From contig CP072538.1 of NCBI GenBank assembly GCA_021730105.1, positions 1 to 64,000 of the forward strand: a stretch of DNA of 64,000 nt. Direction: 5' to 3'. Each line of letters begins with the position of its first letter. Position 1 is the stretch's first letter. Below the pieces are notes generated by a model, which ran no database searches, had not been told where the DNA came from, and worked only from the letters and a program-made list of their open reading frames with translations. This document shows positions 20,942 through 34,524 of the stretch, piece after piece. The stretch comes from Candidatus Ruthia sp. Plio_17_S18 (GTDB lineage: Bacteria; Pseudomonadota; Gammaproteobacteria; PS1; Pseudothioglobaceae). The translations under genes and the position numbers were made by a program.

Positions 20942-21979
20942 ATGAACAATCAACAAATAACCCTAATCAAACCAGACGACTGGCATTTACACGTACGCTC
21001 AGGCGCAGCATTAAAATCAATTATTGACATGACGGCGGCGCAAATGGGCAGAGCAATTATTATGCCTAATTTAAGTCCACCTGTGACTAACGCTACTCAG
21101 GCGCGTGCTTATAAAGAAGAAATTTTATCTGCTTTACCAAAAAGCAGCAAATTTAACCCATTGATGGTCTTATATTTGACCGACAACATCATGCCTAAAG
21201 ATATTCAAGAGGCGATTGATAATGGCGTTGTAGCAGCTAAGTTATATCCTGTAGGGGCAACTACTAACTCAGATAGTGGTGTGACCAATATTGCCAAACT
21301 TTACCCAACACTGGAAAGTATGCAAAAACTAGGCATGCCACTTTTAGTGCACGGTGAAGTAACACGTAGCGAGGTGGATATTTTCGACCGTGAAGCGGTG
21401 TTTATTGATGAGGTGCTGACTCAAGTGGAGAGTGATTTTCCTGAGTTGAAAGTCGTGTTCGAACACATTACCACTAAAGATGCCGTTGATTTTGTTTTAG
21501 CAAGTCATCATCAAATAGCAGCAACCATTACACCACACCATCTTTTGGCCAATAGGAACGATATGTTGGTGGGCGGCATCAAGCCACATTACTTTTGTTT
21601 ACCAGTCTTAAAGCGAAAAAATCCGCATCAATTAGCACTATTAAACGCTGCAACTAGTGGCAATGCTAAATTTTTCTTAGGTACAGATTCTGCGCCACAT
21701 GCTAAGACTGATAAAGAATCTGCTTGCGGCTGTGCTGGCATTTTTACCGCACATTGTGCCATTGAACTTTATGCTACGGTTTTTGAACACCAAAATGCAC
21801 TAGATAAGTTAGAAGGGTTTGCCTCAAAATTCGGTGCAGATTTTTATAACTTGCCTCATAATACACAGACCATTACACTCAAAAAGAAAGATTGGACTGT
21901 ACCAGCAAGCTATCCTTTTGCTCATAGCGATATTGTACCATTTATGGCAACCCAAACACTTAGTTGGAAGCTTATTTAA
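20942..21979 (+). CDS. pyrC: Dihydroorotase
   Basis: PyrC closes carbamoyl aspartate into dihydroorotate, the step between PyrB and PyrD, both also in this window. The 345-residue protein is the class II type: metal ligands in DDWHLHVR near the N-terminus, the carboxylated lysine region [11 protein letters not shown], histidines in VHGEVT and FEHITT, and the GTDSAPH end motif. Motif repeats run right up to its start codon, so its expression signals may lie inside them. Confidence 0.95.
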
Positions 21980-22041
21980 AGTAAAGCCAAGAACGACAGC
22001 TTCCTTTTATCTTCTTTTTTGGCTTTTTCGGGTCGTGAGTA

Positions 22042-22389
22042 ATGCCAGCGCTAGCACCAGACAGAACAACTGCCTGTGCTTATGTGTTTTCATTTTTATT
22101 GCTTGATCCTAAAATAGGCGCAATTAAACATGTTAAATTTAGGCAATCAGTCCATTCAAATATACATGCCACTTTGCGTAAGTTTTGGCTTGAACAAAGA
22201 AATAAATTGGGCTTATCTCAAAGAACTTTAGCTAAAAAACTGCAAGTAGCACCACCGCTTATTTGCAATATTAAAACAGGCGATATATGCCTAGATATTG
22301 TAGAGGTAATTAAGTATTGCAAAGCTTTAGAGGTTTACCCGCACCAAGTCATTGATTTACTTGTCCAACTTGATAAGGAAAAATTTTAA
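22042..22389 (+). CDS. XRE-type helix-turn-helix protein
   Basis: The frame encodes up to 115 residues. The second half is a helix-turn-helix domain of the XRE (Cro/cI) type: KLGLSQRTLAKKLQVAPPLI is the HTH, followed by a dimer helix region VEVIKYCKALEVYPHQVIDL. The first 40 residues do not match a known domain and the true start may be later, perhaps at the TTG near 22100. It may be a lone regulator or the antitoxin half of a lost pair; a partner gene is not visible. Its target is unknown. Confidence 0.6.
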   Translation: MPALAPDRTTACAYVFSFLLLDPKIGAIKHVKFRQSVHSNIHATLRKFWLEQRNKLGLSQRTLAKKLQVAPPLICNIKTGDICLDIVEVIKYCKALEVYPHQVIDLLVQLDKEKF

Positions 22390-22399
22390 AGAAGGTTGC

Positions 22400-23308
22400 T
22401 CATAGCCCAAAAAAGTTTTTGGAATTTTTAACGTCTGACTTTATTTGTTGTTTTAGTGCTGAAAAAGAATAAAATTTTTGTTCGTCGCGAATTTTGTATT
22501 TAAATATAACATTGGCATTTTCGCCATAAACTTGGCTGTTAAAGTCAAATAAAAAGACTTCTAGTAAGATTGTTGCACCCCCAACTGTGGGACGCTTGCC
22601 AAGATTGCATACACCTCTGTAAGTCCTGCCATTTAATGCTATATTAACGGCATACACGCCTAATATCGGGCTGATTTTTCTTTTAATGGGAATATTGATA
22701 GTAGGAAAACCGATGGTTTTGCCTTGTTTTTGGCCGTGAATGATTTTTCCTGAAATTGAAAATTTTCGTCCTAACAGTTGATTTGCCAAGTCAAAATCAC
22801 CCTCTTTGAGTGATTGTCTGATTTTTGAGCTGCTGACTCTGTCAAAGTTGTGAAACACGGTGGGTGTTTTTTCTACCTCAAAATCAAAGGCTTGTAGTAA
22901 AGAAAAATCACCTGTTCGGTTGGCGCCAAAACGAAAATCATCGCCAACTAGGCAGCTCTTAACATTGAGTTTACCTAGTAATATCTGTTGAATGAAGGCG
23001 TTAGCAGAGAGTTGTGAGAATGGCGTATTAAAGTTGATTAATAAGTGCTCATCTAGTCCAAGGTTTGTAAGCAAGGCGTGTTTTTGCTTAAAACTACTCA
23101 GTGTGGCTTGCGCGTGTCCAAAAAAGTGTTGTGGCGTTGGTGAGAACGAAACAAGCACTGATGGCAAGTTCATGGATTGTGCTGTATTAACCAAGGTTTT
23201 GATAATTTTTTGATGTCCTATATGCACACCATCAAAGTTGCCAATGGTAACGACACTACCCAAATGAGGTTTTAAATTTTGTAATCCACGAATGAGTTGC
23301 ATAAGCAT
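22400..23308 (-). CDS. ribF: Riboflavin kinase / FAD synthetase
   Basis: RibF turns riboflavin into FMN and then FAD. The 302-residue bifunctional protein has the N-terminal adenylyltransferase domain with TIGNFDGVHIGHQKI and the C-terminal kinase domain with GKTIGFPTINI and GVYAVNI. A second ATG at 23302 gives MQLIRGLQNL, closer to the E. coli start, and may be the true one. FAD and FMN are needed by several neighbours, including TrxB, PyrD and the ApbE substrate. Confidence 0.94.
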   Translation of the reverse strand: MLMQLIRGLQNLKPHLGSVVTIGNFDGVHIGHQKIIKTLVNTAQSMNLPSVLVSFSPTPQHFFGHAQATLSSFKQKHALLTNLGLDEHLLINFNTPFSQLSANAFIQQILLGKLNVKSCLVGDDFRFGANRTGDFSLLQAFDFEVEKTPTVFHNFDRVSSSKIRQSLKEGDFDLANQLLGRKFSISGKIIHGQKQGKTIGFPTINIPIKRKISPILGVYAVNIALNGRTYRGVCNLGKRPTVGGATILLEVFLFDFNSQVYGENANVIFKYKIRDEQKFYSFSALKQQIKSDVKNSKNFFGL

Positions 23309-23313
23309 TTATT

Positions 23314-23756
23314 TTAGTCTAATTGGCAGAGGATGTTATCAACTGGTTTTGGTACGCCAATATTTAACTAGGATGAGGATTTGAACTCACCCTTGACATC
23401 TGGGCAGTGAATGAGTATTGGGTTGGGTGAAGCTGTGTTTAAAAATGGTTAAGCTCTTTTCTATCAAAGCTGATGGGTGAAAATCAGTTATAGCTTACTG
23501 AATATCTTTGTTATTGTCTGTACACTCTACAAAGCTCACACACAACCCACCCCAAATACCATGGTTTGGGCGTTTTTGTAAGTAGATGTTGTATTTGTCA
23601 TCTTTAAAAATTAACATGGCAATTGAGCGGGCGGATTTGTTTTTCTTTGGCTTTGGATATTTATCTTGTTTGGCATGTCTTGTGCTGCTTGCCAAGATAG
23701 ACAGTGGCGACCAAACTGGTCAAACCACTTCAGTAGTGGCTTTGAGGTTGAGCGCA
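23314..23756 (-). pseudogene. mutY: mutY remnant with large internal deletion
   Basis: MutY removes adenine mispaired with 8-oxoguanine. On the minus strand the piece KPLLKWFDQFGRHCLSWQ matches the first 25 residues of MutY. It runs directly into the C-terminal domain: KYNIYLQKRPNHGIWGGL matches the NUDIX-like part, and GVPKPVDNILCQLD at the end matches the MutY tail. The catalytic HhH-GPD core and the iron-sulfur cysteines are deleted, and frames are broken, so it is dead. It ends at the TAA complementary to 23314-23316. Confidence 0.87.
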
Positions 23757-24812
23757 CTATTTTAAATTAAGCGGGTCATGTAGATTAATGCCAGCCATAA
23801 ATGGCTTGTTAATGTCTTCATGAGTTGTTTGGTAAACGCAACCAATCCAGTTATTGATAATGACATTAGTGGCATTGCCCCAAGTGTTATTTAGGGTTTT
23901 GCTAATGAGTTGCTCAGGAAAGTCTGCAATGCTAAATTCTGCGGACAAAAGTTTGGCTTTATACTCATTGAGAACGGCTTTACTTTGCTCGGTTAAATAG
24001 TGCTCAGGGAAAGGCGGATAGTCATTTCGTGTTTTTTCCAAATAGGCAATAATATCGCGCTTGTATTCTTTTAATAGGCTAATAGTGTCGTATTCTGGAT
24101 GACCTTGGAAAAATACAATCCTTAATAAATCTTCACTAACACCCAAGTGTACACCGATTTTGCTTTCAACCAAAATTTTAACCCCAGCAACATCAAATTG
24201 CGCCTTTGAAATTTCATTAAAGCGAGAATGTGGCACATCAAAGAGTGTATTCACGCCATTCATTAAAGGGTGTTGCCTCTCTAGCACTTGGTGCGGAAAT
24301 ACACCCCAACATTTTCCACCAATGGCTTGGCGTTTTTGTCCATATCTAAATTCCAAGACAGAGTGCGTTGCTAAACATGAACATAGTGTTGAAGTAACGT
24401 GGTCGTACGACCAATCAACCACTTCTTTTAATTCTTCATAGAAAGGTGCTTTTTGCAAATTTGCTTGTTCAATGTGTGCACCTGTAATAATCAGTGCATC
24501 AAGCCCTTGGGTTTTAATATCTGTAAAAGTTTGATAATGTTGTTTGACGTGCTGACTTGTTTTTTCATCGCGTTTGATTGACGATAGTGTAAATGGATGT
24601 AGATAAAATTGTGCAATTTGATTAGAATGTCCAACAAGGCGAAAAAATTGGCGCTCGGTTGCTTCAAGTGCAGTATCTGGCATCATGTTTAATAAGCCAA
24701 TGTGCAATTCACGAATGGCTTGGTTATTTGCTCTGTCTTTTGATAGAATGGTTTCGCCCTCATCTTTAAGGCGTGCAAAAGAAGGCAAGTTTGAATGTGC
24801 AATTAGTGGCAT
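23757..24812 (-). CDS. metA: Homoserine O-acyltransferase, MetA type
   Basis: MetA acylates homoserine, the first committed step of methionine synthesis. The 351-residue protein has the MetA start (IGLLNMMPDTALEATERQF), FYLHPFTL, and the active-site cysteine in HVTSTLCSCLATHS, plus FFQGHPEYD with the catalytic His and Glu. The usual CWGAQAGL around the cysteine is replaced by CLATHSVL, so it belongs to a divergent branch; whether it uses succinyl- or acetyl-CoA cannot be read from sequence here. It overlaps the upstream P-loop gene by one base. Confidence 0.88.
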   Translation of the reverse strand: MPLIAHSNLPSFARLKDEGETILSKDRANNQAIRELHIGLLNMMPDTALEATERQFFRLVGHSNQIAQFYLHPFTLSSIKRDEKTSQHVKQHYQTFTDIKTQGLDALIITGAHIEQANLQKAPFYEELKEVVDWSYDHVTSTLCSCLATHSVLEFRYGQKRQAIGGKCWGVFPHQVLERQHPLMNGVNTLFDVPHSRFNEISKAQFDVAGVKILVESKIGVHLGVSEDLLRIVFFQGHPEYDTISLLKEYKRDIIAYLEKTRNDYPPFPEHYLTEQSKAVLNEYKAKLLSAEFSIADFPEQLISKTLNNTWGNATNVIINNWIGCVYQTTHEDINKPFMAGINLHDPLNLK

Positions 24813-29500: not shown

Positions 29501-30644
29501 ACTGCTTGATGATTTCACGGGTCGTTTCACGAGCAACAAGGTCGTTATTAACAACCTCATCTAAAGAGTTAGGCGTTGTGTGTTTCATGGTGCTTAGTGT
29601 TTGGTCAACGATTTTTGGTATGTCTAAGAAACCAATTTGATGATTAAGAAAATGCTCAACTGCAATTTCATTGGCTGCATTCATGGTAATCATGGCATTA
29701 CCGCCCTTGTTCAACGCTTCAAAAGCTAGCTTAAGGCAAGTAAATCTTTCAAAATTTGGTTGATAAAACTCTAAGGCAGGAACGTTAGTCAAGTCAAGCG
29801 CAGCAACGCCAGAGTTAATACGTTGTGGATAGCTCATGGCATATGAGATGACTGTGCGCATATCTGGATTGCCTAGTTGAGATAGTGTTGAGCCGTCTTT
29901 ATAATAGACTGATGAGTGTACAATGCTTTGCGGGTGTATCACCACATCAATTTGTTCTGGAACGATTGAAAATAAGTAATGCGCCTCAATCACCTCCAGT
30001 CCTTTGTTCATCATGGTGGCAGAATCAACCGAAATTTTACGCCCCATTGACCAGTTTGGATGTGCACAAACCTGATCTGGGGTAATGGATTTAAGTTTGC
30101 TAATCGATGTATTCAAAAACGGGCCACCACTGGCAGTTAACTGTATTTTGTTTAAGCCCGATCTGCCACTTTGTAGGCACTGGAAAATTGCGCTGTGCTC
30201 TGAATCAACAGGAATCAGTTCGGCATTAAATTCTGCCACTGCCTTCATAAAAATATCACCTGACAATACCAGCGATTCTTTATTTGCAAGCATAATGCGC
30301 TTGCCTGCTTTGGCAGCACAAAGGGCTGAGGACATGCCAGCAGCGCCCACAATAGCAGCCATAACAAAGTCGGTGTCTTGATGGGCGGCAACCTTATCTA
30401 ACGCCTGAGTGCCACTAAGTACTTGAATATCAGTGATGACTGCATTTGATAATTTTTCAGCAGACTGCTCGTCCACCATGACTGCATAATTGGGCTGGTA
30501 TTTGTTACACAACTCAAGCATTTGTTGCCAGTTGGTATTGGAGCTTAGAGCAAAAATGTTAAATTGATCAGAGTGTAAATCCACTACTGACAAAGTGCTT
30601 TTACCGATAGAACCAGTCGCACCGAGCAGGGTTATATTCTTCAT
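29493..30644 (-). CDS. dxr: DXP reductoisomerase
   Basis: Dxr makes 2-C-methyl-erythritol 4-phosphate, the committed step of the non-mevalonate isoprenoid pathway. The 383-residue protein has the NADPH fold GATGSIGKSTLSVVD at the start, LANKESLVLSG, the active-site DSEHSAIFQCL, and SMGRKISVDSATMMNKGLE. It lies after cdsA and uppS on the same strand with overlaps, so the isoprenoid carrier and phospholipid steps are made together. In many relatives rseP follows dxr; here an M23 peptidase gene does. Confidence 0.96.
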   Translation of the reverse strand: MKNITLLGATGSIGKSTLSVVDLHSDQFNIFALSSNTNWQQMLELCNKYQPNYAVMVDEQSAEKLSNAVITDIQVLSGTQALDKVAAHQDTDFVMAAIVGAAGMSSALCAAKAGKRIMLANKESLVLSGDIFMKAVAEFNAELIPVDSEHSAIFQCLQSGRSGLNKIQLTASGGPFLNTSISKLKSITPDQVCAHPNWSMGRKISVDSATMMNKGLEVIEAHYLFSIVPEQIDVVIHPQSIVHSSVYYKDGSTLSQLGNPDMRTVISYAMSYPQRINSGVAALDLTNVPALEFYQPNFERFTCLKLAFEALNKGGNAMITMNAANEIAVEHFLNHQIGFLDIPKIVDQTLSTMKHTTPNSLDEVVNNDLVARETTREIIKQYE

Positions 30645-31441
30645 ATTAAGCCAAGACCTAGTAGAAAGAATGGCGCCGCTGCTGTGAGAGAATCAATTCG
30701 GTCTAGAATGCCACCATGTCCAGGCAGAGTTTGTCCACTGTCTCTAATGTTTGAGGTGCGTTTAAATAAGCTTTCAAACAAATCGCCCAATACTGATACG
30801 CTAGCGACAACAATGGCTAATAGTAAATAACTCAAATATTGATTGGTCGCTATATTTTGATATTGTAAAAACATAACCATTACCACTAAGGCAACACCAA
30901 TGCCACCGATTACGCCCTCGATTGATTTTCCTGGACTTACTTTTGGTGCCAATTTTCTTTTGCCAACTGCCTTGCCAGTAAAATAAGCGCCAGAATCAGC
31001 ACCCCAAATAATCAGCATGAGTAGTAAGAAATAATCAGCTCCGTATTGTTGTTGTAAAGTAATTAATGCAACCCACATAGGCACTAACAATAATACACCG
31101 CTTATGATACGAACAATAAGCGGATTAAACCACAGGTTGGTTTTATTGGGATAGCTTAGTACCCAGTATAAATTAACCATCCACCATAAAATGGACAAGT
31201 AAAGTACAAACTCAATAATTTGGACATTGTTTTGGATGGTGAGTGCGCAGGCAACAATACCAACCATCAATAACAGTCTAGCAACTAAGCGCTTAAATTT
31301 AATTAAACGTGAAAATTCCCATGCGCCAAGTGCAACAAAAACCAAAAGCAACCGTGCGAAGTAGTGACTAGGCATGGAGAATATTGCCCAAATAAATAAT
31401 GGCGCTAAAACGAGCGCAGTGATGATTCTTTGTCTTAGCAT
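30641..31441 (-). CDS. cdsA: CDP-diglyceride synthase
   Basis: CdsA makes CDP-diacylglycerol from phosphatidic acid and CTP, feeding all phospholipids. The 266-residue inner-membrane protein has about eight hydrophobic segments and the C-terminal signature SLFKRTSNIRDSGQ followed by LPGHGGILDRIDSL. It overlaps dxr downstream by 4 bases and uppS upstream by 7. Confidence 0.94.
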   Translation of the reverse strand: MLRQRIITALVLAPLFIWAIFSMPSHYFARLLLVFVALGAWEFSRLIKFKRLVARLLLMVGIVACALTIQNNVQIIEFVLYLSILWWMVNLYWVLSYPNKTNLWFNPLIVRIISGVLLLVPMWVALITLQQQYGADYFLLLMLIIWGADSGAYFTGKAVGKRKLAPKVSPGKSIEGVIGGIGVALVVMVMFLQYQNIATNQYLSYLLLAIVVASVSVLGDLFESLFKRTSNIRDSGQTLPGHGGILDRIDSLTAAAPFFLLGLGLI

Positions 31442-32151
31442 GATTTTGCTTTAAGCCTTGTGCCAAAACGCCTATTGCGATTATTAAAGTTGGTGATGGC
31501 TTTGTTTAATTCAGACTCGTTAAAATCTGGCCATAGCGTTTCTGTGAAATAAAACTCACTATAAGCAATATCCCACAATAAAAAATTACTAATCCTAAGT
31601 TCACCACTAGTGCGAATTAACAAATCAACAGTTGGCTCATCGGCTAATGACAGATATTGTGAAAAGCTATCTATATTAATATTGTTGGCTTTTATATCGC
31701 CATCAATAGCTGCTTTGGCAATTTTAGCCGCTGCCTGAGCAATGTCCCATTGACCGCCATAATTGGCTGCAATCACTAGCATTAGACCAGTATTGCTAGC
31801 GAGTAGTGCTTGTGCATCAAGTGCTGTTTGTTGGATTTTGGCAGGAAATAAGGACATATCACCAATTATTTTTAGTTTGATATTGTGCTCATTGAGTTTT
31901 TTAACCTCTTGTTTAAGCACACAAAGAAATAGTTTAAATAACAAAGAGACTTCTTCAGTCGAACGGTTTTTATTCTCGCTACTAAAAGCAAACAAAGTCA
32001 GTGTGTTAATACCGCGTATTGCACAAGCTTTAACAACACCACGCACCGCCTTAATCCCTTGTTGGTGTCCTAGAGTACGGGGCAAAGAGCGTTTTGATGC
32101 CCAACGACCATTGCCGTCCATGATAATTGCGATGTGTTTAAGCGTACTCAT
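31435..32151 (-). CDS. uppS: Undecaprenyl diphosphate synthase
   Basis: UppS builds the C55 lipid carrier for cell wall and O-antigen units by cis-adding isoprene units. The 238-residue protein has the start signature IMDGNGRWASKR near residues 9-20 and SGELRISNFLLWDIAYSEFY near the C-terminus, both conserved in the family. It is the first gene of the uppS-cdsA-dxr-M23 run on the minus strand and is divergent from hisF. Confidence 0.95.
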   Translation of the reverse strand: MSTLKHIAIIMDGNGRWASKRSLPRTLGHQQGIKAVRGVVKACAIRGINTLTLFAFSSENKNRSTEEVSLLFKLFLCVLKQEVKKLNEHNIKLKIIGDMSLFPAKIQQTALDAQALLASNTGLMLVIAANYGGQWDIAQAAAKIAKAAIDGDIKANNINIDSFSQYLSLADEPTVDLLIRTSGELRISNFLLWDIAYSEFYFTETLWPDFNESELNKAITNFNNRNRRFGTRLKAKSC

Positions 32152-32238
32152 AACAAAGTCGTATTATACCCATAGCATTGCAAGCAATCAGTAAACACAG
32201 TTAATATAGAGTTGATACGTGCGGTAAAATTCATGCTT

Positions 32239-33012
32239 ATGAGTTTAGCAAAAAGAATCATTCCTTGTCTTGATGTGCGTGATGGCCGTGTGGTTAAAGG
32301 CACTAAGTTTGTTGATATCAAGGATGCAGGCGACCCAGTTGAGGTCGCTAAGCGTTATGATATTGAAGGTGCTGATGAGATTACTTTTTTAGACATTACT
32401 GCATCAATTGAGGGTAGGGACATTATGGTACATATGGTGGAGGCAATTGCTGAGCAAGTATTTATTCCGTTGACCGTGGGTGGTGGCATTCGTAAGTCGG
32501 CTGATGTGCGCGCGATGTTAAATGCAGGTGCGGATAAAGTTGCTGTTAATTCTGCTGCCATTTTTAATCCTAATCTAATTAACCAGTTAAGTGAAGAATT
32601 TGGCTCGCAATGTATTGTGATTGCAATTGATGCTAAAAGAGTGACCGAGAACCCATTAAAATGGGAAATTTTTACTCATGGTGGGCGTAAACCAACAGAT
32701 ATTGACGCTATTGAGTGGGCAGTTAAAATGACTCAAGGTGATAATGGCGCTGGCGAGGTGCTGATTACTTCAATGGATTGTGATGGCGTTAAAACAGGAT
32801 TTGATTTGTTACTCACTAAGGCAGTTTCTGATGCAGTGGATGTGCCTGTGATTGCCTCTGGTGGTGTGGGTAATTTAGAGCATTTGTCTGAAGGTGTGTT
32901 ACAAGGTGGTGCTGATGCAGTGCTGGCAGCTAGTATTTTTCATTTTGGTGACTATACGATACAACAAGCTAAACAAGCTATGCAAGAGAACGGCATAGAA
33001 ATCAGACTATAA
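32239..33012 (+). CDS. hisF: Imidazole glycerol phosphate synthase HisF
   Basis: HisF is the cyclase half of imidazole glycerol phosphate synthase in histidine synthesis. The 257-residue TIM barrel begins [20 protein letters not shown] and ends in HisF style with phosphate-binding VIASGGVGN and [14 protein letters not shown] start it at the ATG at 32239, since upstream starts at 32212 and 32233 add residues outside the family. Its usual partners hisA, hisH and hisI are not adjacent. Confidence 0.95.
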
Positions 33013-33080
33013 TACTTGGTTTTTTAGTTTCTTGGTGTTTTTAAGTGTATTATTAGGCGCTTTATAAGCATAAGATTTTT

Positions 33081-33611
33081 ATGAACTCTAAGAAAGAATT
33101 GTGGGTATTATTGGCATCCTTTGTATTACCAATTGCTTTTGGAACGGCTTTCTTTTATTTAAGTCCTACTTCTTTTACTCAACATACGGTTAATTATGGT
33201 GAGTTTGTTAATCCTATCATTGCCACTACAAAACAAGACATTGTTTTTATTGACACCCAAAGTAGCTTACAAGGTTTGTGGACACTAACCTACACAACTA
33301 AGCAATGTGATAATATTTGTATAAAGGCATTGCAAGATATGAAGACAGTTCGTATTTTGATGAATGAAGACATGCGCCGTATTCAAAATTTGCTGCTAAT
33401 GACAAACAAAGCCAAAGCGCAACAGGCAGATGTGTTAGTTGGACATGCCAGTGAAGCGCTTAATCGACAACTGAATCAGTTTCCAGCAAATAGTTTATTT
33501 TTGATTGACCCGCTTGGCAATGTGATGCTGCGTTACAATTCTAAAAATTTAGAGATTAAGCGTGTTATTAAAGACTTAAAACGCTTATTTAAATATTCAC
33601 GCATTGGCTAA
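33081..33611 (+). CDS. Membrane-anchored oxidase-associated protein
   Basis: The 176-residue protein has one N-terminal membrane anchor (residues 8-26) and an outward domain of thioredoxin-like character with GLWTLTYTTKQCDNICIKAL holding a CxxxC pair, like Sco proteins, and FLIDPLGNVMLRYNSKN. Proteins of this sort sit beside ctaA/ctaB in many oxidase clusters. It may carry copper or reduce disulfides for the oxidase, but that is inference. It overlaps the next gene's long start form by 8 bases. Confidence 0.65.
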   Translation: MNSKKELWVLLASFVLPIAFGTAFFYLSPTSFTQHTVNYGEFVNPIIATTKQDIVFIDTQSSLQGLWTLTYTTKQCDNICIKALQDMKTVRILMNEDMRRIQNLLLMTNKAKAQQADVLVGHASEALNRQLNQFPANSLFLIDPLGNVMLRYNSKNLEIKRVIKDLKRLFKYSRIG

Positions 33612-33624
33612 ACATAAACAGGAT

Positions 33625-34524
33625 ATGACAATGCCTTCAATCAGCGACTTACTAGCTTTGTGTAAACTTAAAGTAGTGGCACTGATATTGCTAACAGCAG
33701 TAGTGGGTATGTTTTTAGCTGTACCTGCGCCGTATTTACCTAATTGGTTGTTGGTGCTGAGTGCCTCAATTGGTATTAGTATGGCAGCTGCCTCAGCCGC
33801 AGTGTTTAATCATGTGGTTGATGAGCAGGTTGATGCCCAAATGTCTCGCACTAACAAGCGCCCTTTGCCACAAGGAAAAGTAAGCCGAAACCAAGCATTA
33901 GTATGGGGTGTATTTTTAGGGCTTGTTGGTCTTGGCGTTTTACAATTGTTTGTTAATACTATTACCATGGTGCTTACGTTCGTTTCACTGATTGGTTATG
34001 CCATCATTTATACCTTGTATCTTAAACGCGTAACACCACAAAATATTGTTATCGGTGGTGCAGCAGGTGCAGCACCTCCAGTGCTAGGTTGGACAGCAGT
34101 GTCTGGTACTCAAGGTATTGAGTATGCTTGTTTGTTGTTTTTAATTGTTTTTATCTGGACGCCACCACACTTTTGGGCATTGGCCATTCATCGAGTTGAG
34201 GAGTATAAAAAAGTTGGCGTGCCAATGTTGCCAGTTACACATGGACTGGCTTATACCAGAACACAGATTTTGTTATACACAGTGTTGTTGTTGTTGGTTA
34301 GTTTATTGCCTTATTTGGCAGGCATGTCAGGGCTTATTTATTTATCAGTAACAACAGCGCTGGGTATTAGATTTTTGATGTATGCGATTAAGATTTATAA
34401 CAATCCAGATGATAAAAGAATTGCTTGGCGTACCTTTATGTATTCAATTAATTATTTAATGTTGTTATTTGTCGCACTATTATTTGATCATTATTGGCTA
34501 ATATTGCCTTGGGAGGTTTTTTAA
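33625..34524 (+). CDS. ctaB: Protohaem IX farnesyltransferase
   Basis: CtaB (CyoE) attaches a farnesyl tail to haem B to give haem O, which CtaA turns into haem A. The 299-residue inner-membrane protein has the UbiA-type substrate motif NHVVDEQVDAQMSRTNKRPL, followed by a second acidic region near HRVEEYKKVGVPML, with about eight spans. The start could be TTG at 33604, ATG at 33625 or ATG at 33631; AGGA at 33620-33623 best fits 33631. It lies with the other oxidase-assembly genes. Confidence 0.93.
   Translation: MTMPSISDLLALCKLKVVALILLTAVVGMFLAVPAPYLPNWLLVLSASIGISMAAASAAVFNHVVDEQVDAQMSRTNKRPLPQGKVSRNQALVWGVFLGLVGLGVLQLFVNTITMVLTFVSLIGYAIIYTLYLKRVTPQNIVIGGAAGAAPPVLGWTAVSGTQGIEYACLLFLIVFIWTPPHFWALAIHRVEEYKKVGVPMLPVTHGLAYTRTQILLYTVLLLLVSLLPYLAGMSGLIYLSVTTALGIRFLMYAIKIYNNPDDKRIAWRTFMYSINYLMLLFVALLFDHYWLILPWEVF

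Follow-up and report, generated by a model that had tools for sequence, protein, structure and literature searches.

That vesicomyid symbionts have lost mutY is already in print, as the original prediction for the locus studied here had stated. The relevant passages (PMC3202245, PMC5310779) concern only clade I ('Candidatus Vesicomyosocius okutanii' and relatives) and 'Candidatus Ruthia magnifica', and in these cases recA and mutY are both gone. In 'Ca. R. magnifica' a passage of PMC3202245 places mutY (Rmag_0017) at 21165–22172 and describes a truncating G-to-A change. The main text of either paper names neither mutM nor mutT, and among the papers searched none combines mutM with vesicomyid. 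Reciprocal loss of mutM and mutY is described in passages on symbionts of insects, namely Blochmannia (PMC4389277) and the Sodalis symbionts of lice (PMC11137140), and the latter cites a 25–75-fold stronger double mutant. Neither set of passages mentions thioautotrophic clam symbionts.

We identified a further mutY remnant in the genome of Candidatus Ruthia sp. Plio_17_S18 (G000), a single contig of 1,231,801 bp, within its bases 1–64000, the 64,000-nucleotide stretch analysed here (the window). Judging by its genus neighbours, this organism would be a clam symbiont. The remnant lies on the reverse strand between an intact upstream neighbour, metA (homoserine O-succinyltransferase; 23757–24812, reverse strand), and an intact downstream neighbour, ribF (riboflavin kinase/FAD synthetase; 22400–23308, reverse strand). 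We conclude, with a probability of roughly 0.93, that this is the mutY pseudogene of a vesicomyid-type clam symbiont, in which a 562-nt deletion took the whole adenine-glycosylase core and smaller lesions broke the rest. The loss is an ordinary event of genome reduction, well documented here; its kind is known, and the case itself is new and arose independently. We found no report of it for this lineage; a paper on vesicomyid symbiont genomes in Proc. R. Soc. B may contain some of these findings. On the other side of ribF, between it and a pyrC-like gene, the window also holds a 115-aa open reading frame (22042–22389) with a helix-turn-helix-like stretch, these names being given by eye.

The coordinates originally given for the locus (23314–23756) hold exactly. 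The remnant was aligned to six intact mutY genes of genus relatives, all in the same metA-mutY-ribF slot, which leaves no doubt about its identity. Its 5' part (23666–23757, reverse strand) retains codons 1–30, which correspond to the first helix and to positions 4–30 of the mutY model TIGR01084, and begins at a GTG start at 23757 that overlaps the metA stop. The core-deletion junction at 23665/23666 (reverse strand), mapped through this alignment, marks the loss of codons 31–218 and a shift of frame. What follows (23314–23665, reverse strand) is the linker and NUDIX-like C-terminal domain, with a NUDIX_4 match of 24.8 bits and a TIGR01084 match, ending at the old TAA stop (23314–23316). The alignment places further lesions in this 3' part: a CAA-to-TAA nonsense change at MutY codon 276 (23495–23497, reverse strand); a deletion of 17 nt that shifts the frame, placed approximately at 23424/23425 (reverse strand), where an ACCCA/CACCCA repeat lies; a CAG-to-TAG nonsense change at codon 324 (23368–23370, reverse strand); a 6-nt deletion; and a 3-nt insertion in a GT repeat. 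The original prediction had described a clean view of how mutY was lost, which overstates the case, since the core deletion stands among at least six lesions, any of which may have come first.

Compared with two intact genes, those of relatives G007 and G011, the core deletion removes 562 nt, starting inside codon 31 and reaching codon 218 of 341. This length leaves a remainder of 1 when divided by three, so that the two ends of mutY now lie in different frames, and translation begun at the GTG start loses the frame past the junction and ends at 48 aa. The original prediction, a MutY first helix joined straight to the NUDIX-like domain with the core removed, is thus borne out for the loss of the core but not for a join in a single frame. 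MutY of G007 aligns with the catalytic-domain structure of E. coli MutY (1kg7) over query residues 3–223 (E=2.3e-70), and the codons lost in G000 encode in G007 the SEVMLQQTQ segment, the LPGIGESTAG helix-hairpin-helix and four cysteines. This span would include the two catalytic residues, Glu and Asp, and the four cysteines that hold the Fe-S cluster. The HhH-GPD core that carries these residues, by which a MutY is recognised, is therefore deleted in G000. A MutY is further recognised by a full-length TIGR01084 match above the cut-off of 286.5 bits. In a whole-genome search the remnant matches positions 200–264 with 23.1 bits (E=2.9e-5) and positions 4–30 with 12 bits (E=0.09), and with scores only this high it is a pseudogene and not a MutY.

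The deletion brings GCCAAACAA against GATAAATA. Short direct repeats at its ends, which the original prediction had raised, come down to a microhomology of three bases (CAA) common to both, and long direct repeats were rejected as its cause on the same ground. A 7-nt word, CAAGATA, is common to both sides, near but off the deletion ends, and the post-deletion sequence of window 23300–23800 contains no direct repeats of at least 12 nt. By an arithmetic estimate, shared sequence of at least 3 nt is expected at about 6% of random breakpoints. The deletion may have arisen by short-homology slippage or end joining.

The remnant still contains two readable open reading frames, of 66 aa (23495–23695) and 48 aa (23611–23757), which could be taken to mean that it is a trimmed but useful small protein, either a C-terminal NUDIX-like fragment standing alone or a short peptide from the helix. 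However, the longer frame requires a TTG start, is out of the original frame before the junction, and spans only positions 3–27 of the 113 in NUDIX_4 before it stops at the new nonsense codon. The shorter one is partly out of frame, and beyond both lie the 17-nt deletion and the second nonsense codon. We therefore give a retained small protein very little credence, and the remnant would have been left without any function. Counts of nonsynonymous to synonymous changes in its 143 shared codons (10, including the stops, to 9, against 15 to 11 in functional relatives; p=0.77) show no relaxed constraint, in a test that has no power.

An intact mutY elsewhere in the genome, named in the original prediction as the observation that would speak against it, was not found. 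A six-frame search of all of G000 with the mutY model, which is positive in 14 of 14 control genomes, returned no second mutY but only the remnant and one 60-bit match; this is nth (TIGR01083, 273 bits), the only strong HhH-GPD match. The locus thus has the features of a vesicomyid-lineage mutY pseudogene: the metA-mutY-ribF slot, an intact homologue in relatives and no other functional copy. The sequence comes from one assembly only, and the locus could be an assembly or sequencing artefact in an organism with an intact mutY. Against this stand six lesions of differing kinds in one gene with both neighbours intact, and a mutation spectrum, described below, that agrees with mutY loss, so that we consider an artefact highly improbable.

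Within the genus we compared G000 with eleven relatives (G001–G011), in each of which metA and ribF adjoin in the same way. The slot holds an intact mutY of 344–348 aa, scoring 348–355 bits (cut-off 286.5), in G002, G004, G007, G008, G010 and G011. Names that we infer are Ca. Ruthia sp. Cpac_8_S14 for G002, Ca. Ruthturnera sp. Tsphm01 for G004 and the MAG CSMAG_640 for G008. The mutY of G003 has an in-frame TGA, and in G001, G005, G006 and G009 the slot holds only scattered AT-rich debris. G001 we take to be probably Ca. V. okutanii. G006 and G009 would be Ca. Vesicomyosocius sp. Pext_18_S21 and Ca. Vesicomyosocius sp. Agig_15_S12. We identify G003 with 'Ca. Ruthia magnifica' on the strength of the position of its mutY, 21351–22160, set against the coordinates and the truncating change published for Rmag_0017 and given above. 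In G008 (L068, C98) about 185 extra bases separate metA from mutY. This stretch carries AAGAGACCTTTGTATC at one of its ends and the reverse complement of that sequence at the opposite one, and may be a small mobile insertion.

Trees were built from window-region genes, with 27 genes (8,542 aa) and with 34 genes (11,753 aa). Both place G007 as the sister of G000 with a support of 100/100 (SH-aLRT/UFBoot); a two-gene tree gives the pair 90, or 65 on codon positions 1 and 2. The branch to G000 is longer than that to G007 (0.040 versus 0.025). This pair groups with G002, G010 and G011, all of which have mutY, at UFBoot 56 and 70 for the wider group, and G003 groups with clade I at 91 and 71. Between metA and ribF, the sister G007 still carries its mutY intact. 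The gene was therefore lost in the G000 lineage after its split from G007, separately from the published losses in 'Ca. R. magnifica' and clade I. A single ancestral loss shared by all three could be argued from their belonging to one genus and from the clustering of clade I with G003, which may share an early event. However, G000 sits beside G007 within a group whose other members (G002, G007, G010 and G011) all carry an intact mutY, and the alignment reveals no inactivating lesion common to G000 and either clade I or G003, each of which has lesions of its own. A shared loss is accordingly most improbable. In the sister genome we also observed two copies (C1:693383–697640 and within 964549–973313) that match window positions of about 30114–34377 at 94–95%, a duplication of about 4.3 kb.

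In clade I, whose mutY loss is published (PMC3202245), deletions have likewise degraded the gene between metA and ribF, mutM has been kept, and mutT is lost or degenerate. In contrast, G000 belongs to another clade, carries other lesions, retains much of the MutY C-terminal domain and a GC content still at about 37–38%, and has an intact recA. 'Ca. Ruthia magnifica' also has a broken mutY (Rmag_0017, PMC3202245), an intact mutM and a raised G:C-to-T:A share. It differs from G000 in that what broke its mutY was a nonsense change together with small deletions, in that no more than a remnant of recA is left, and in that mutT is intact. A full-length recA above the cut-off is present in 7 of the 12 genus genomes, including G000 (568.8 bits), is missing from clade I and is a remnant in G003. 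Earlier published losses of mutY coincided with loss of recA, and so the effects of the two are hard to separate. G000, without mutY but with recA intact, forms a matched pair with its mutY-carrying sister G007, in which the effect of mutY is measurable apart from that of recA.

Without MutY, an A mispaired with 8-oxoG would stay in place, and oxidised G:C pairs would turn into T:A after replication. We counted changes at four-fold degenerate sites in genes of a 384-kb portion of G000 and their orthologues in stretches of G007, G011 and G010. For the comparison of G000 with G007, the outgroup state was that on which G011 and G010 agreed, and 62 of 68 candidate genes were used, six having been excluded because their identity was too low or their divergence too high. 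The changes in G000 and G007, respectively, were 44 and 14 for G:C to T:A, 192 and 142 for G:C to A:T, 9 and 3 for G:C to C:G, 171 and 140 for A:T to G:C, 23 and 11 for A:T to C:G, and 14 and 10 for A:T to T:A. The share of G:C-to-T:A changes is thus 0.097 in G000 versus 0.044 in G007 (p=0.0054; gene-bootstrap difference 0.019–0.088), and with all genes kept p is 0.006.

In the same 62 genes, G:C-to-T:A changes unique to a branch number 44 of 453 in G000, 14 of 320 in G007, 14 of 477 in G011 and 31 of 564 in G010. The share in G000 exceeds that of G007 and G011 pooled, both of which have mutY (28 of 797; p=1.2e-5); in G010, which lacks mutM, it is intermediate (p=0.08 against the same pool). 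As G011 may group with G002 and G010 (UFBoot 52 and 68), the control of G007 against G011 with G010 as outgroup is not strictly polarised, which leaves the unique-change counts for G000 unaffected. A corresponding excess is seen in G003 against G011 with G002 as outgroup (53 versus 6; p=2.2e-6; 29 of 32 genes). The rise in G:C-to-T:A substitution expected of MutY loss, as originally predicted, is therefore present on the G000 branch.

The excess might instead come from another cause, such as a degenerate mutT or a general increase in rate, since other transversions are also up about 1.9-fold in G000 relative to G007, and against G007 alone G:C to T:A is not in significant excess over them (p=0.25). 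The Nudix-ThiE (MutT-like) fusion of G000 (C1:1146976–1147866; L225:1977–2867) is an open frame with an in-frame 33-nt deletion (11 residues) between ACGCAA repeats, and in its Nudix box GFWELPGG has become GFWGLHVG and RELKEEL has become RELKKEL. This alignment comprised G000 and three of the seven relatives with mutT (G007, G004 and G011), G003, G010, G002 and G008 being left out. The altered Glu is presumably a metal ligand of MutT, and cleaning of 8-oxo-dGTP has probably been lost in G000 as well. However, loss of mutT is expected to raise A:T to C:G, and this class is not significantly up (share 0.051, versus 0.034 and 0.050; p=0.29 and 1). Moreover, measured against other transversions in the G007 and G011 pool, the G:C-to-T:A excess is specific (p=0.0028). 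We thus regard another cause as unlikely, if less so than the alternatives above, and retain loss of MutY as the explanation; part of the shift in spectrum may still stem from the degenerate mutT.

The original prediction also held that the loss would push the genome further to AT. This stands to a slight degree only: GC at four-fold sites (52 genes) is 0.332 in G000 versus 0.341 in G007 and 0.343 in G011 (0.317 in G010), while total GC in the fetched stretches shows no drift to AT, at 0.374, 0.375 and 0.374 for G000, G007 and G011. The counts imply an equilibrium four-fold GC of 0.256 in G000 and 0.288 in G007. The mark of MutY loss is present, yet the genome is not visibly AT-richer so far. 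Most AT-ward changes are G:C-to-A:T transitions (192 of 236 in G000 and 281 of 334 in G003), which MutY is not known to prevent. Because the G:C-to-T:A mark is present while GC has barely moved and AT-ward change is mostly G:C to A:T, these results temper the published view of mutY loss as a main driver of low GC in vesicomyid symbionts.

The loss of mutY would be tolerated in G000 since mutM stays intact (296 bits). An intact mutM is found in 9 of the 12 genus genomes. It is broken by deletions in the other three, G002 (C1:691819–692558, L217), G010 (C1:210134–210280, L218) and G008 (C70:8460–8582, L219), all with mutY. G002 and G010 share a deletion of about nt 554–635, G010 also lacks about nt 170–508, and in G008 the deletion is a different one, spanning about nt 53 to 717. 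Within the genus, mutM has thus been lost twice and mutY two or three times, depending on whether the losses in G003 and clade I go back to one early event. A mutT match above the cut-off is present in 7 of 12 genomes, with no match in G001, G005 and G009 and a broken fragment in G006. From these gene states, mutM seems to be the one 8-oxoG repair gene still intact in G000, as in clade I.

As in Blochmannia and louse Sodalis, one 8-oxoG glycosylase is gone and the other kept, here in thioautotrophic clam symbionts rather than in insect hosts. No genome of the genus lacks both mutM and mutY (0 of 12; p=0.09), nor does any of the 49 family genomes, out of 83, that are at least 90% complete (p=0.086, the species not being independent; p=0.12 for the 47 left when two unclear genomes, G035 and G061, are removed). 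These counts are only suggestive of mutual exclusivity. Among genomes less than 90% complete, neither gene is above the cut-off in G015, G018, G025, G027, G064 and G074, all that G072 shows is a mutM fragment of 31 positions, and in G082 mutM is missing and mutY is interrupted by an in-frame TAG. Genera g5 and g8 each have two incomplete genomes, neither gene being found in any of them, and the rule may fail outside the genus. We put at even odds the proposal that clam symbionts lose MutY (three lineages, mutT following in two) or MutM (two deletions) but never both, double loss making an intolerable mutator. If true, the constraint seen in insect symbionts would extend to autotrophic symbionts of the sea, and each loss could be read from the mutational mark that it leaves in their genomes. 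An apparent mutY core deletion in G035 may only reflect a run of N at its locus (L294, C47). Near the N-terminus, the open frame at this locus carries three QASHSSPLGG repeats.
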